This document shows positions 7,905 through 42,356 of a DNA stretch of 64,000 bases, piece after piece. The translations under genes were made by a program, and so were the position numbers. A model generated the notes under the pieces. The model saw only the letters and a list, made by a program, of their open reading frames with translations, made no database searches and was not told the origin of the DNA. The stretch covers positions 3,167,040-3,231,039 of the forward strand of contig SMSO01000035.1 of assembly GCA_004764695.1 (NCBI GenBank), written 5' to 3'. Source of the stretch: Schizochytrium sp. TIO01. Taxonomy: Eukaryota > Sar > Bigyra > Thraustochytrida > Thraustochytriidae. The first letter of the stretch is position 1; every line of letters starts with the position of its first letter.

Positions 7905-10900
7905 TTACACGGAGGATGTTGGACGCGGAGGATTTGGTGTTGCCGGAAATTTTGCTTGCTCGTCCTGCTGACGCTTATGAACTTGGTGACAAGCAGTCTC
8001 TGTCACTGGCGTAGGAGGACGCCGTGGTACAGCTGTTCGCACACCGGGGCCTTGCTCAGCCTTGACGCTCCTGAGAAACTCGATGACATCATCGTGCATA
8101 TGAGACAATGCGTCATCAAGCGGAGTGTGCCCCCAGCGATCAATGGGATTCATGTTGGCCCCTGCGTTGCACAATATCTTGAGAAAGTGGAGGTTGTTTT
8201 CTGAGGCTGCGAGGTGAGCTGCAGTGCGGCCATCATAATCAGCCGTGTCCAAAGAAACGCCTTCGGATGTACACAGCTTCAAGGCCTTGATGTCTCCACG
8301 AGTAGCTGCCTCCACAAGACGCTGACAGCGACGCTGCAAGTAGAATTCGTTGGAGAAGTCTCTCACATCGAGCTTTTTACTCACGCCTCGAAGAAGACTG
8401 TAGCGATGGATAGTATACTTTTCTTGCATAATCTTGCAAAAGTGAATGCCACGTGCAGAGTTTCCAAGCTTATCGAGACGAGGGGACCATGTGCACATGC
8501 CCATAACATTAGGAATGACAATTAGCAGAGCACCGGCAACACCAGATTTGGCAGGTACACCAATAGAAAATTGGAACTCACCAGCATAATCATACATTCC
8601 AGAGGACGCCATGATTGAAAGACAGTTTCGCACAGTTTCTGCGCGGAAAACGCGTTTCTGGGAAATTGGACAGACACCACCGTTGGCAAGAGTTGCCGCA
8701 ACCACAGAAAGAGTTTCGGCAGTTGCCTCCAGACTGCACATTTGAAAATAAAATTCAAGTACCTCTTCCAAGGCATGTGTTGAATTCACATGCGAGGGGA
8801 ATGCACCCTTCTCCTTCATCAAATAGCCAAGACAGCGATTGCGGTCTGCAGTAAACATCTCGCTGAGAAAGGTCTCGTTGGAGTAGCCAGGGGCTTCACC
8901 GCCAGCCAATTCTTTCCATACTGATGTGACGTAATCAAAGCGGTCCTCACTACTGACTTCGGGGAGAATGAGGGACGCGGTCATAATAGCACCAGCATTG
9001 ATCAGAGGGTTGTGCGGAAGACCGTACTTATTTAAGGTAAGCTCGTTAAAGTTACGACCACTTGGTTCATGAGCGACGTGTCGATGAATTACGCCTTCAC
9101 CAACAAGTTCATGAGCAATACAGTACGAAATGGGCTTCGAGCAACTTTGTACGCAAAAGGGGTCTCGAGCATCTCCATACGAAAATCGCTGGGCATCAAT
9201 AGAGCAAACAGCGATACCAAACTTTTCTGGATCTTGGCGGGCCAATTGCGGAATATAGTCTGCCACTTTACCTTCACGATGTTCTTTGGCTTGCTCAAAC
9301 ATATCAATCATGTCGTTGGAGAACTGCTTGAAATTGCATATCACCGCACGACCCTGAAGTACCTTCTCAATGTATGGGAACTTCTCACAAAAGTACTGCA
9401 AGCGACGTGCTGTCAGCTCACGACCACCTGAAGATTCCGAGCTGTTTTGCCCCTTTCGGTAACTGGAGTCCGTCCCCCCGTTGACTTGTTTTCCATCAGA
9501 CCCGCTGCTGTTGCGTTTGTGTCGAAGCTTCTCAATGGAGTCACCAGAGCTACCCTTTGCGAACTCTCGAGCCAAATCATTGTAACGCTCTTCTGTACCA
9601 ATACCCTGGTGGTGGAGAGCGTTCAATAAGTCGAGCTCAGTTGCCGTACGGCAGTGTTCAACGCCCTTTTCGTCTGTGTAAATCTGTGTGAGTGCCTCAA
9701 GCATACGCTCCATACGCTCTTTGGTTTGAATGTCGCTCTGCATACGTTTTGGAGCTCGTTGACCGTCAAGGCCACGCAGCAAGAGATCTGCAAGGGGACC
9801 ATTCATGTGCGACGCTTCAGAGCCGGCATCTCCATTTTCGCTTCCGCCTAGATTCTCAGTATCGCCATCAATGTCTGAATCAACTGTTTGAATCCGGCCA
9901 TCAACCGCATGAGCAGCAAGATTACTGCCACGCTGCGACATAGCATCGACAAGCATATGATAGGTACGGAGACCGCTCGATAGCTGCGCGCGACTTGGGT
10001 TTCCACCGATTTGCATGTAAGTGCTATTGGAAGTGCCATCTATTGAAGGTGAAGCAGCACTTCCACTCTCACTTACAGAGTTTTTGGGGGAGCGCATGGT
10101 TTTGTGGGCCTCGCTATACTCAGAGGGCGTGAGCTCTTCGGTTGGTGTTGCTTCCGGGGCTGCATTGTTATCATCCTCTCCATCGTCCGTCTTGTGGTCT
10201 TGAATAATATCATCAACATCATCCATGCCCTCATGGTCTGATCCTGAGTCATATGTGCTTCCAAGCGAGTCTACCACAGACAGTTCCGTGCCAGCACCGA
10301 GTTTTTCTAAAACATGATAATCGCGAGATTCATCACAAACAGCATACTCTGGAGGAGATTGAAGAAATTGAACCACATCGTCATGGCCTTCCGCACGAGC
10401 GTCATCGAGAGGAGTATTACCATAACGGTCCTTAGAATTCGGGTTAGATCCAAAGAGGCATAGGAGTTTCACACAATCAAGGTGACCCTCTGAAGCAGCG
10501 ACATGAAGACACGTACGCATATCATAATCTGGGAGATTGACGTCAACACCGCGAGCAAACACTCTACGAAGGTGGTCTGCGTTACCGTTTGCCACACAAT
10601 AAAAGAGCTCATCAGTGAGAAACTCGGCTCCGCGAGCTACGTTTGCAGAACTCGTGGCATCTGTGTTTATACGAGAAGCATGGCTTGTCGTACTTTCTGT
10701 TTTAAACAGACCCCCTCTGATGTCACCGTTGCCTATGTGATTGTTGAGAGGTGGCGGTTGGGCTACACGGTTCTGTTCGGCCTCTTGCTCTGCGGCATCT
10801 GCTTCTTCGTTGGCCAACGCACTATCCCGAAAAATTTCACGATAGACATGCGCATCCTGCACAACAAATGAATCAAACGTGTGTAGGCCAAACCGAGAAA

Positions 10901-12086
10901 CAAACTCATCTGCAAAGGCAAGGCCAAACGTACTAATTTCAGAAGCTGGATTCAGTCGAGGAGAGAAAGTACAGAACCCCCCCAAGTTTGGAATCACCAC
11001 CATGGTGAAGCCCGACAGTGAACTCTTGCAAGGATAGCCAATTGTGAACTGTAAAGAACCACTGTACTCACCCATACCACACGAGCTCATCATGGATAGG
11101 CACATTTGAACATGCTCTGCGCTGAAAACACGGGTGTTCGTCGTTGGGCATACGCCACCTCCAGCAAGTGTAGCAGCAAAAATAGCAAGCTGTTGAGTGC
11201 TGGCCTCAATGCAGCAGTTCATAAAGTAGAAGTCCATTGTGTCCTCCAAATTGGCAGCAGCTTCTCTAGGGAAGCTATTGTGCTCCTTGAGCATATAGGC
11301 GAGACAATAAGCATGATTTGCATGACGGCGTTGAGAGAGGTAATGCGAGTTAGCAAAGTTGATGGAGATGTTGCCTGTTGCGCGTTTCCAAACGGATTTG
11401 ATATAATTGAATCGATCTGCCAAGCGTTCCCTATTTTTAATCAAAGCTGAACTCATGATGAGTCCAGAGTCTACAAAGGGGTTGTAAGGAAGGTTATTGC
11501 TATCTAAAGAAAGATCGCGTACAGATCGACCAGAGGGTTCCCGTCCAATACATTCATGGACACGTTCCATGCCATTGAGCTCTAGAGCTGTGCAATAAAG
11601 AAGAGGCGCGCACATTTCTGTGAGAGTGAATTTTTCTTCGTAATCACCACGGTTCCACTGCTGGCCATGCATGGTACAGAAGGATGCAGCAAGGTGTTCT
11701 GGGTCAACTCGAGCAAGTTTTGGCGTGCGACGGCAAACCTTTCCGGCCTTCCAGCCCTTGGACTTGACTGTACTTTCATAGCACTTGTCAAGCTGGTGTG
11801 AGACGGCCTGGAAATTTGGAATTACCAGAGTACCACTCAGAGCTGCCTCAATAAGGGTGTTATGTTTTGCAAGGCCCATAAGCTCGCCTAAGGTGAGCTC
11901 ATGTTTCTCCAAGCTTGCCAGAAACGTTGTATCTCCACTTAGACGTTCATCTTGAATGCTAAGACCCGTCTGTTGTAGCAGTTCAAGGAACTCTCGCATT
12001 GGGATGTTATGAGCGCCATCGTCCACCAGAGACGAAAGCAGTGCAGTCAACTCTGGGGAGCTAGGCGACGAGCTCAAGCTCATCAT
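7905..12086 (-). CDS. Tandem double glutaminase with ankyrin repeats; first domain is a pseudoenzyme
   Basis: One intronless frame encodes 1393 residues made of two complete KGA-type glutaminase units. Each has an EF-hand-like helical lead (about 1-95 and 790-925), a glutaminase domain (about 95-415 and 920-1245) and ankyrin repeats (about 488-580 and 1250-1340). An acidic, Ser-rich linker (600-765) joins them. Glutaminase converts glutamine to glutamate and ammonia using a Ser-x-x-Lys pair. The second domain keeps Y944, S981, K984, N1030, E1076, N1083, Y1113 and Y1165, equivalent to human GLS Y249, S286, K289, N335, E381, N388, Y414 and Y466. The first domain has R120, E157, A160, D206, Q252, A259, Y287 and G339 at those sites, so only one of eight survives. 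It is therefore predicted to be inactive and possibly regulatory. No clear mitochondrial presequence is seen at the N-terminus. The start is ATG 12086 (a second ATG follows directly). Confidence 0.95.
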   Translation of the reverse strand: MMSLSSSPSSPELTALLSSLVDDGAHNIPMREFLELLQQTGLSIQDERLSGDTTFLASLEKHELTLGELMGLAKHNTLIEAALSGTLVIPNFQAVSHQLDKCYESTVKSKGWKAGKVCRRTPKLARVDPEHLAASFCTMHGQQWNRGDYEEKFTLTEMCAPLLYCTALELNGMERVHECIGREPSGRSVRDLSLDSNNLPYNPFVDSGLIMSSALIKNRERLADRFNYIKSVWKRATGNISINFANSHYLSQRRHANHAYCLAYMLKEHNSFPREAAANLEDTMDFYFMNCCIEASTQQLAIFAATLAGGGVCPTTNTRVFSAEHVQMCLSMMSSCGMGEYSGSLQFTIGYPCKSSLSGFTMVVIPNLGGFCTFSPRLNPASEISTFGLAFADEFVSRFGLHTFDSFVVQDAHVYREIFRDSALANEEADAAEQEAEQNRVAQPPPLNNHIGNGDIRGGLFKTESTTSHASRINTDATSSANVARGAEFLTDELFYCVANGNADHLRRVFARGVDVNLPDYDMRTCLHVAASEGHLDCVKLLCLFGSNPNSKDRYGNTPLDDARAEGHDDVVQFLQSPPEYAVCDESRDYHVLEKLGAGTELSVVDSLGSTYDSGSDHEGMDDVDDIIQDHKTDDGEDDNNAAPEATPTEELTPSEYSEAHKTMRSPKNSVSESGSAASPSIDGTSNSTYMQIGGNPSRAQLSSGLRTYHMLVDAMSQRGSNLAAHAVDGRIQTVDSDIDGDTENLGGSENGDAGSEASHMNGPLADLLLRGLDGQRAPKRMQSDIQTKERMERMLEALTQIYTDEKGVEHCRTATELDLLNALHHQGIGTEERYNDLAREFAKGSSGDSIEKLRHKRNSSGSDGKQVNGGTDSSYRKGQNSSESSGGRELTARRLQYFCEKFPYIEKVLQGRAVICNFKQFSNDMIDMFEQAKEHREGKVADYIPQLARQDPEKFGIAVCSIDAQRFSYGDARDPFCVQSCSKPISYCIAHELVGEGVIHRHVAHEPSGRNFNELTLNKYGLPHNPLINAGAIMTASLILPEVSSEDRFDYVTSVWKELAGGEAPGYSNETFLSEMFTADRNRCLGYLMKEKGAFPSHVNSTHALEEVLEFYFQMCSLEATAETLSVVAATLANGGVCPISQKRVFRAETVRNCLSIMASSGMYDYAGEFQFSIGVPAKSGVAGALLIVIPNVMGMCTWSPRLDKLGNSARGIHFCKIMQEKYTIHRYSLLRGVSKKLDVRDFSNEFYLQRRCQRLVEAATRGDIKALKLCTSEGVSLDTADYDGRTAAHLAASENNLHFLKILCNAGANMNPIDRWGHTPLDDALSHMHDDVIEFLRSVKAEQGPGVRTAVPRRPPTPVTETACHQVHKRQQDEQAKFPATPNPPRPTSSV

Positions 12087-40109: not shown

Positions 40110-42356
40110 TTATTCGTAGGTGCCATCGTGGTTACGGTCAACTTCAGAGATGATGCCCTGCCACTTCTCCGCAACGCGGCGAAGCTTGCCGGCATCAATG
40201 GTGATCAGCTGACGGTTGCGCATAAGGCACTTACCATCAACCCAAACATCGCTGACCTGGTGGCGGCTGCAAGCATACACAAGGTGAGACACAACGTGGT
40301 AGGTCGGAAGACAAGAGAGGTCCGAAAGGTTGACGGCAATCATATCAGCCTGCTTGCCAACCTCCAGAGATCCAACCTTGTCAGCAATGCCAAGTGCCTT
40401 TGCACCGTTGATGGTGGCCATGCGAAGGGCCTGAGTTGCTGGAACAGCGCAAGGCTCAAGGGCAACGCCCTTTGCAAGGATTGCAGCAAGCTTCATCTCA
40501 GCAAACATGTCAAGGGAGTTGTTCGAGGAGGCTCCGTCAGTACCAATCGCAACGTTGACGCCAGCATCAATGAGTTTTTGCACGGGGCAGAATCCACTGG
40601 CAAGCTTTAGGTTCGAGGTCGGGCAGTGCACGACATGTGCGCCAGCCGCTGCGTACTGCTTGATCTCCTCGTCGTTGAGGTAGACCATGTGCGCCGCGAC
40701 AAACTTGTCGTCCACCACACCAATGTCGAAGAGATTCTTGAGCGGGCGGCACGCCTTGTCACACTGGTGGCAAAAGGAGGAAGTGCGATCTCCGCGCTCG
40801 CTGTCCTCAACCTCTTTGGTGGTCTCGTGCAAATGAATGTGGTATGGCAAATTCTTCTCCCGCGCGAGTTTGTGGGATTTGATAAGGTCCTCCTCAGAGA
40901 CAGAATATGTACTGTGGGGTGCCACAGTAAACTTGAGGCGGTCTGAGCGGCCTTCGTAATCCTCGATCATCTGGCGGCCCTTGTCAAGATAATCTCCGGC
41001 TCCACTGGCGTAATTAGACGGGAACCCAATTACGATGGCGCCTGGAAATCCTCGGATACCGGTCTCATCAATGACCTCAGCGGTAGACTCGGGGAAGAAG
41101 TACATATCCGAGAAACAAGTGACTCCACCACGAATGAACTCAGCAATGGCCAGTCGGGATCCTTCACGAATCATTTCCTTGGATACCGTCCGGACTTCGG
41201 TGGGCCAAATCTTCTCGGTGAGCCACTTGTCAAGTTGAAGGTCGTCAGAGAATCCGCGCATGAAGACCATGGGTGTGTGGGTGTGGGCGTTAATAAGACC
41301 CGGCATAAGCACACAGTCTGGGCATCGGATGACCTTTGTTGCGTCTGAGGAGAAGGATCCGTATTTGATATCTGCGTCATGTGAAGGCAAGATATCAATG
41401 ATCTTGCCATCCTTGATGGCCACAGCGTGGTTGTCAAGGACACGGTTCTCGCCGTCAACAGTCACAACACTCATGGCGTGCACAACCTCATCGCAAGGCT
41501 CCCGAGGAGTCGACGGAGTGGGTGGCACGGACTTCGCAGACTTGGTCTCAAGCTCTTGCTCTCCAAGACGCAGAAGAACGTCCGGGTAGACCTTGAAGTG
41601 GCTGAGCACGAGGTGCACTGCGTTTTCAATCTTGGGCTGGTTCTCGTGCTGCACTGCGAAGAATTCCTCCAGAGTGAGCTGAGGTCCAATACCGTTGGCC
41701 ATGTTATCCACAATTGCAAGCATTGCGTAGGGAATCTCGAGTTCCCTTGCCAGTGTCGCTTCGTGAGCTCCAGTCATTCCAATAACTTCTCCGCATTGAG
41801 ACATAAAACGGATCTCAGCCTTAGTCTCAAAGCGGGGTCCGTTTGAGTTAACATAAACACCTCCGTCCATGACCTTCTCGCCGCCTCTGAAGAGCGCCGT
41901 AAGGATCTCCGATCGAAGAGGTTCGCTGAAACCAGGCACGTTGTGGCCTCGAGCATCATCGAAGGTGCTCATGATGTGCTGCGGACAGAAGAAGTCATCA
42001 GGCATCACCAGAGCGCCCATCCCGATATGGTGCCGCATAGAACCGACAGAGCAAACTGCGACAATGGCCTTGACATTCACCTGTTTCATGGCAGACATGA
42101 TGGCACGAAAGTTGACCAAATGCGGAGGACTGTATGGCTTAGCAATGTCTCCAGCGTGACGCTGCACAAAAACAACCTCAAGGTTCTCACTGAGCTCCTT
42201 GCGGTACATCTTAACTTTTCCAAAACCAGCCTCAGTGTCAACAACAAACTCAGTCATGGTCTCGGGGGCAAACATGGCACTCTTCAAGAGGCCGCTGCCG
42301 CCAATGACGCCCAAGACCACCTTGGACACCCCATCGATGGTAACAGGAGCCGCCAT
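40110..42356 (-). CDS. Fusion of 6-oxopurine (methylthioinosine-type) nucleoside phosphorylase and MTA/SAH deaminase
   Basis: 748 residues in one frame. Residues 1-265 are a PNP/MTA-phosphorylase-family trimeric fold: GVIGGSGL phosphate loop, RH at 66-67, SVGSMRHH, NGPRFETKAE and IGMTGAHE. Glu177 and Asn218 sit where human PNP has Glu201 and Asn243, whereas human MTAP has Ser178 and Asp220. That predicts 6-oxopurine use. The 5' pocket position of MTAP Val233 appears to be Leu229, favouring a hydrophobic methylthio group over the PNP His; this alignment needs a small gap. Residues 290-748 are an amidohydrolase of the MTA/SAH deaminase group, with ligands or catalytic residues H358, H360, H508, E511, H556 and D607. 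The predicted pathway is MTA to methylthioinosine to hypoxanthine plus methylthioribose-1-phosphate. An unusual insert has C529, C532 and C536. Confidence 0.92.
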   Translation of the reverse strand: MAAPVTIDGVSKVVLGVIGGSGLLKSAMFAPETMTEFVVDTEAGFGKVKMYRKELSENLEVVFVQRHAGDIAKPYSPPHLVNFRAIMSAMKQVNVKAIVAVCSVGSMRHHIGMGALVMPDDFFCPQHIMSTFDDARGHNVPGFSEPLRSEILTALFRGGEKVMDGGVYVNSNGPRFETKAEIRFMSQCGEVIGMTGAHEATLARELEIPYAMLAIVDNMANGIGPQLTLEEFFAVQHENQPKIENAVHLVLSHFKVYPDVLLRLGEQELETKSAKSVPPTPSTPREPCDEVVHAMSVVTVDGENRVLDNHAVAIKDGKIIDILPSHDADIKYGSFSSDATKVIRCPDCVLMPGLINAHTHTPMVFMRGFSDDLQLDKWLTEKIWPTEVRTVSKEMIREGSRLAIAEFIRGGVTCFSDMYFFPESTAEVIDETGIRGFPGAIVIGFPSNYASGAGDYLDKGRQMIEDYEGRSDRLKFTVAPHSTYSVSEEDLIKSHKLAREKNLPYHIHLHETTKEVEDSERGDRTSSFCHQCDKACRPLKNLFDIGVVDDKFVAAHMVYLNDEEIKQYAAAGAHVVHCPTSNLKLASGFCPVQKLIDAGVNVAIGTDGASSNNSLDMFAEMKLAAILAKGVALEPCAVPATQALRMATINGAKALGIADKVGSLEVGKQADMIAVNLSDLSCLPTYHVVSHLVYACSRHQVSDVWVDGKCLMRNRQLITIDAGKLRRVAEKWQGIISEVDRNHDGTYE

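Follow-up and report, generated by a model that had tools for sequence, protein, structure and literature searches.

We analyzed a 64,000-nucleotide stretch of DNA from the thraustochytrid Schizochytrium sp. TIO01 (contig SMSO01000035.1, hereafter the window) and found that a single open reading frame (ORF) of 748 amino acids on its minus strand joins an N-terminal domain resembling 5′-methylthioadenosine (MTA) phosphorylase (MTAP) to a C-terminal deaminase of the MTA/S-adenosylhomocysteine (SAH) type. Polyamine synthesis releases MTA, an inhibitor of methyltransferases, as a by-product, and the textbook eukaryotic route of its breakdown is MTAP. The fused protein is probably a bifunctional enzyme that, judging from its sequence, would deaminate MTA to 5′-methylthioinosine (MTI) and cleave MTI to hypoxanthine, and would thus follow the rarer, deaminate-first route of MTA breakdown. 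Both the fusion and this pathway had been proposed from the letters of the window alone (the original prediction); the fusion is confirmed here, and the interpretation is supported by sequence comparison. The pathway and the pair of base-reading residues described below are already known, and what is new is the fusion, in a eukaryote. Among the titles and abstract openings listed in a literature search, which covered few subscription journals, there was no MTA deaminase/phosphorylase fusion.

The fusion ORF (40110..42356) runs uninterrupted from ATG to stop and is intronless, and a profile search of the whole genome recovered around it an open frame of 761 codons whose matched region is free of stops. 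In one and the same frame, Pfam recognizes two domains, PNP_UDP_1 at residues 16-248 (whole-protein E 2.3e-26) and Amidohydro_1 at residues 349-709 (E 2.4e-71), both far beyond chance. The two halves were aligned separately.

For the phosphorylase half, the closest solved sequence is 3ozb (100.2 bits, compared with 50.6 bits for the human-type MTAP 1cb0), which we take to be the methylthioinosine phosphorylase (MTIP) of Pseudomonas aeruginosa; the record is titled methylthioadenosine phosphorylase, and in our trees it sits among Pseudomonas sequences. The claim that this half carries Glu177 and Asn218 instead of the Ser and Asp of MTAPs is borne out by alignment with 3ozb, MTAPs and purine nucleoside phosphorylases (PNPs). 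Glu177 lies inside GPRFETKAE and Asn218 inside IVDNMANG, and both align with the Glu and Asn of 3ozb, whereas Ser and Asp occupy these columns in the archaeal MTAPs 1v4n, 2a8y and 1wta and in the MTAP-like 4glf. The first motif reads GPRLETVAE in 3ozb, GPRFSTRAE in the three archaeal MTAPs, GPQFSTRAE in 4glf, GPNFETVAE in bovine PNP and GPTYETGAE in the genome's own PNP; the second reads VDN in the fusion, VVN in 3ozb, VTD in MTAPs and ITN in PNPs. Specificity for a 6-oxopurine base is well predicted from these columns. Human and archaeal MTAPs share the same family of folds with the fusion and are its kin in sequence (TIGR01694, 168.5 bits), but the MTAPs aligned here have Ser/Asp where it has Glu/Asn, and automatic annotation would probably name the N-terminal half an MTAP.

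A third position bears on the 5′ group. Residue 229 is Leu in the fusion, Met in 3ozb and Ala in the aligned MTAPs; both bovine PNP and the PNP of this genome have a His here, which presumably contacts the 5′-hydroxyl. Among 80 relatives of the phosphorylase half, 71 carry L, M, F or I at this position and 7 carry His, so a hydrophobic residue here is not strictly diagnostic of MTIP.

These relatives were gathered by scanning genome contigs with an alignment of the phosphorylase half and 3ozb, the best 80 of at least 586 being kept, and are called MTIPs by similarity only. Judging from record titles and tree labels, most belong to proteobacteria, largely of the beta and gamma classes; four are from Bacillota and one is from a Candidatus Magnetocorallium labelled Nitrospirota. 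Glu and Asn are both found in 80/80 of these best relatives, a count to be read with the fact that the two peptide patterns of the scan miss the Glu/Asn columns, while the ranking, by similarity to a query that itself has Glu/Asn, favours sequences of this kind. We therefore rejected the idea that Glu/Asn is a novel residue pair, since bacterial MTIP-like relatives and 3ozb carry it as their signature. In viral contigs, five stretches matched a pattern, with no relative among them.

The deaminase half is ordinary. It exceeds the curated cut-off of NCBIfam NF006549 (PRK09045, TRZ/ATZ family hydrolase) with a whole-protein score of 571.4 versus 540 bits; the next best model gives 373 bits, 5′-deoxyadenosine deaminase 334 and PRK15493 246, and the 5′-deoxyadenosine and MTA/SAH deaminase models match under their cut-offs. 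Its best solved relative is the MTA/SAH deaminase 4f0r (421.9 bits), followed by 4dzh (404.1 bits) and, at about 350 bits, 3lnp, 4dyk and 4gbd. Across 57 rows, a few of them mutually identical, 89 positions are conserved at a level of 90% or more; this half keeps 79 of these and all seven metal or catalytic positions that were checked (H358, H360, H481, H508, E511, H556 and D607), each invariant in 57/57 rows. We take His358 and His360 to be metal ligands, as in the amidohydrolase family, His508 and Glu511 to be a metal ligand and the general acid/base, His556 the catalytic histidine, and Asp607 a further metal ligand. With its checked active-site residues intact, this half is predicted to deaminate MTA, and its assignment to the MTA/SAH type in the original prediction stands. 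A tree of 61 rows, 58 of them different, places it as sister to 39 deaminases with 93% support in the Shimodaira–Hasegawa-like approximate likelihood-ratio test (SH-aLRT), all 39 coming from the Pseudomonadota scan described below or from proteobacterial MTIP genomes; the half has a long branch and an unusual letter make-up, and it and the distant guanine-deaminase outgroup were flagged as long branches.

Table 1. Coordinates, in the window, of the fusion gene and of its domains and key codons.
Feature	Position	Strand	Basis
Phosphorylase-deaminase fusion, single ORF, 748 aa	40110..42356	minus	ORF and domain searches
Phosphorylase domain, residues 16-248 (PNP_UDP_1)	41613..42311	minus	Pfam
Codon of Glu177, predicted to read the 6-oxopurine base; MTIP and PNP have E, MTAP has S	41826..41828	minus	alignment
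Codon of Asn218, predicted to read the 6-oxopurine base; MTIP and PNP have N, MTAP has D	41703..41705	minus	alignment
Leu229 codon, position of the PNP His	41670..41672	minus	alignment
End of phosphorylase and linker, residues 249-284, Ser/Pro/Thr-rich near its end (SVPPTPSTPREP)	41505..41612	minus	between domain limits
Deaminase domain, residues 285-738	40143..41504	minus	NF006549 match
His358-x-His360	41277..41285	minus	H in 57/57 rows at both
His481 (APHSTY)	40914..40916	minus	H in 57/57 rows
His508 and Glu511 (HLHET)	40824..40835	minus	57/57 rows at both
His556	40689..40691	minus	57/57 rows
Asp607 (GTDGA)	40536..40538	minus	57/57 rows

In the mechanism that we propose, the C-terminal, metal-dependent deaminase would convert MTA to MTI and ammonia, and the N-terminal phosphorylase would cleave MTI with phosphate to hypoxanthine and 5-methylthioribose-1-phosphate, the former to be taken by HGPRT and the latter by the isomerase MtnA. 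Phosphorylases of this family are trimeric and deaminases of this family oligomeric, and their union in one chain would turn the fusion into a larger assembly. That both halves are catalytic, that they prefer a 5′-methylthio group, that they act in this order and that fusion brings a benefit of any kind, for instance a local pool of MTI shared by both halves, is what we infer. If the proposal is true, consecutive steps can fuse in an order that puts the second enzyme at the front of the chain, and the fusion offers a clean test of a local hand-over of MTI.

PMC6302742 describes the MTI route of P. aeruginosa with separate enzymes, in keeping with what had been claimed for bacteria. The fusion resembles that system in both enzyme families, in the predicted reactions and intermediates, in the Glu/Asn pair of 3ozb and in the placement of its deaminase half with Pseudomonadota deaminases, but differs in that two proteins there correspond here to one chain, in a eukaryote, with a much diverged phosphorylase half. 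Fused methionine-salvage enzymes (MtnAK, MtnBD and MtnBC) occur in protists and plants according to PMC2759508; they provide a eukaryotic precedent for fused MTA-recycling steps, but none unites a deaminase with a phosphorylase. A eukaryote with the same two conversions is Plasmodium, whose adenosine deaminase (ADA) belongs to a different deaminase family from that of the fusion. There, according to PMC3885546, ADA and PNP take MTA through MTI to hypoxanthine, but as separate proteins and with a hexameric PNP. If our reading is true, the MTI route arose a second time in eukaryotes, beside Plasmodium, by different enzymes, and a yield of hypoxanthine instead of adenine alters purine salvage.

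Bacterial genomes provide a further line of evidence. We examined 30 genomes taken from the 80 bearing an MTIP, mostly named isolates, and found a close deaminase as a separate ORF in 27 of them (38-49% identical, E < 1e-70). Within the stored flanks (at most 4 kb a side) of the 80 MTIP loci, a deaminase is present at four, all from Bacillota (L069, L076, L093 and L104), about 1.1-1.8 kb downstream of the phosphorylase with room for a gene between. Pseudomonadota and Bacillota were the phyla scanned for fusions, with at most two candidates scored per genome. For 398 Pseudomonadota genomes, of which 84 gave a deaminase match (E <= 1e-60), no fused gene appeared among the matches listed, all of which begin at query residue 253 or beyond. 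Of 398 Bacillota genomes, 291 gave a match, and at least three match both halves of the fusion. In these three (L167:1471-3561, L168:1477-3582 and L169:1528-3669), a Glu/Asn phosphorylase of 260, 265 and 271 amino acids is followed, in the order of the fusion and in one frame, by a deaminase of 431, 434 and 440 amino acids, with a single stop codon between and gaps of 12, 3 and 3 nucleotides, respectively. This adjacency argues that the two activities belong together, and the view that the two halves form a logical consecutive pathway is reinforced both by the co-occurrence and by the in-frame tandem genes.

The Bacillota tandem pairs illustrate what a pre-fusion step looks like; like the fusion they place a Glu/Asn phosphorylase before a deaminase in one frame, only 3-12 nucleotides apart, but they are two genes with a stop codon between, and their deaminases do not group with that of the fusion. 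Descent of the fusion from the Bacillota tandem is therefore unsupported, the deaminase tree not putting the three beside the deaminase of the fusion, and for the same reason the eukaryotic fusion looks independent. A bacterial origin of the fusion as such found no counterpart either, no fused bacterial gene being among the matches listed in the 398 Pseudomonadota and 398 Bacillota genomes. Perhaps the fusion was an independent event that followed the transfer of proteobacterial genes.

To place the fusion in the metabolism of its host, we analyzed the remaining MTA and purine salvage genes of the genome. Six-frame searches yielded three PNP_UDP_1 genes. Besides the fusion, these are L001, a canonical PNP for inosine and guanosine (318 bits with TIGR01700), and L003, a eukaryotic uridine phosphorylase (267 bits with TIGR01719). 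The original prediction had suggested looking for a separate MTAP gene; in the genome search no separate MTAP- or MTIP-like gene was found, the MTAP model matching only the fusion (171.5 bits) and the canonical PNP, both under its cut-off. The PNP_UDP_1 family also takes in MTA nucleosidases, so a nucleosidase gene should have shown up as well. APRT is present (L011), and an exon of HGPRT (L016) was found as a stretch of 64 amino acids, which indicates that detection at that size can work. The genome also encodes AMP deaminase, two adenosine-deaminase-like genes, an ADGF-like gene and guanine deaminase. The ADGF-like adenosine deaminase (L025:1420-2907) scores 259 bits against TIGR01431 and does not reach the cut-off of 315. 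Another fused gene of nucleotide metabolism encodes orotidine monophosphate decarboxylase (OMPDC) and orotate phosphoribosyltransferase (OPRT), decarboxylase first (L012:1360-2892), an order that occurs in stramenopiles, kinetoplastids and cyanobacteria; PurF is also present (L017), and the two features together may point to a stramenopile.

Downstream of the phosphorolysis, MtnA is present (L020, 386.8 bits). Reading the genome exon by exon, so that short exons may be missed, we found no match to PF03079 for MtnD and none to TIGR01691 for MtnC; the two models passed their cut-offs in only 2 and 1 of 14 control genomes. MtnB was not found either, the matched part of one class II aldolase gene (L138) scoring 28.8 versus 137.05 for MtnB. 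All three negatives are soft. In a second class II aldolase gene (L139:1321-3534), whose matched part is likewise unlike MtnB, the N-terminal part resembles the bacterial bifunctional RhaD-type aldolase/short-chain dehydrogenase (PRK08324 family). Methionine salvage beyond methylthioribulose-1-phosphate thus seems missing or replaced. If the classical enzymes below MtnA are missing, MTA might be disposed of rather than recycled; that the fused enzyme would be the sole entry point of MTA, passing hypoxanthine to HGPRT and methylthioribulose-1-phosphate to a class II aldolase, is a tentative extension of our proposal that we consider possible, if doubtful. Such a pathway may be a eukaryotic analogue of the bacterial dihydroxyacetone phosphate (DHAP) shunt outlined in PMC10986504, with L139 as one candidate aldolase. 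The presence of APRT led us to reject the idea that adenine is avoided for want of this enzyme.

Several observations weigh against the bifunctional reading. The phosphorylase half reaches 146 bits with the MTIP model NF006599 (cut-off 223) and 168.5 bits with the MTAP model TIGR01694 (cut-off 274.85), and since the former cut-off is missed, we describe this half as working like an MTIP rather than file it as a member; the PNP model TIGR01700 is absent from the best 25 of the 53 models matching the fusion protein. Of 73 MTIP-conserved positions, those with the same residue in 90% or more of 81 MTIPs (3ozb plus the 80 relatives), only 46 are kept. Among the lost ones are the D-x-T-x-x-R loop, His at 74, Tyr at 83, Asn at 86, Gln at 121 and Pro at 198, all common to MTIPs and the four MTAP-type sequences. 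Among the MTIP/MTAP rows this half sits on by far the longest branch (end branch 3.68), and a 36-row tree without eukaryotic MTAP sequences rejects neither its grouping with MTIPs (p-AU 0.35 in the approximately unbiased test) nor with MTAPs (p-AU 0.416). Moreover, 3 of the 30 MTIP-bearing genomes lack a close deaminase, and with APRT present nothing obvious would require this genome to keep from making adenine. Given its divergence and undecided placement, the 5′-methylthio specificity and the activity of the phosphorylase half are less certain than its base specificity.

These losses, some of them presumably in stretches near the phosphate and the 5′ group, together with the very long branch and the contrast between 46/73 conserved positions in one half and 79/89 in the other, would fit an enzyme in which only the deaminase acts on MTA while the phosphorylase has drifted to another 6-oxopurine nucleoside (inosine, 5′-deoxyinosine or S-inosylhomocysteine) or is mainly a scaffold for oligomerisation. 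We regard this as unlikely. The glycine-rich loop, Arg66-His67, GPRFET (GPR-E-T), GMT and Asn218 are all retained, the frame is intact, and in codon usage the gene matches those of nucleotide metabolism in this genome. Apart from the fusion, the searches turned up one purine phosphorylase, a canonical PNP, and according to PMC3885546 the human PNP leaves MTI uncleaved.

It is very unlikely that the N-terminal half is a true MTAP that happens to carry Glu/Asn, with the deaminase acting on SAH, adenosine or 5′-deoxyadenosine. The higher score with the MTAP than with the MTIP model (168.5 > 146), the MTAP grouping that the tree leaves standing (p-AU 0.416) and the matches of the deaminase half to the 5′-deoxyadenosine and MTA/SAH deaminase models under their cut-offs point that way, but neither phosphorylase cut-off is reached, the four aligned MTAP or MTAP-like sequences have Ser/Asp where the 80 relatives have Glu/Asn, and the deaminase half fits PRK09045 at 571 bits versus 373 for the next best model, 334 for 5′-deoxyadenosine deaminase and 246 for PRK15493.

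The authenticity of the fusion gene was assessed from its codon usage and surroundings. Its codon usage correlates at r = 0.55 with the pooled neighbours in the window, compared with 0.90-0.94 for four neighbours tested alike. Compared with 17 other genes of the genome, the correlation is 0.87-0.94 for PNP, urease, dihydroorotase, OMPDC-OPRT, two PRPP synthases, PurF, MtnA, ADGF (L025, 0.91) and L139 (0.92), 0.83 for AMP deaminase, 0.79 for UPRT and 0.36-0.62 for the remaining five, including the shorter ADA-like L024 (0.36) and L026 (0.45). The simplest reading is that the fusion is a well-expressed metabolic gene, and its correlation with the genome's own nucleotide-metabolism genes makes contamination unlikely. 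That the fusion is an artefact of annotation or assembly, be it two genes, a contaminant or a pseudogene, is scarcely credible: its codon usage is unlike that of its window neighbours, but its 748 codons form one stop-free open frame on a megabase contig with eukaryotic neighbours, and the genes it does resemble in codon usage include PNP, PurF, OMPDC-OPRT, the two PRPP synthases and MtnA.

The fusion gene lies on a 4.7-Mb contig of an assembly of 64 Mb in 37 contigs, and its neighbours in the window are RabGAP, kinesin, SNF2, kelch-RING and DOCK genes. Kinesin, DOCK, SNF2 and RabGAP genes surrounding the fusion mark the genome as eukaryotic, and contamination was rejected on the combined grounds of a 64-Mb eukaryotic genome, eukaryotic neighbours and matching codon usage of nucleotide-metabolism genes. 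Elsewhere in the window, an ORF of 1393 amino acids (7905-12086, minus strand) encodes ankyrin repeats and, after them, a glutaminase domain matched in two stretches.

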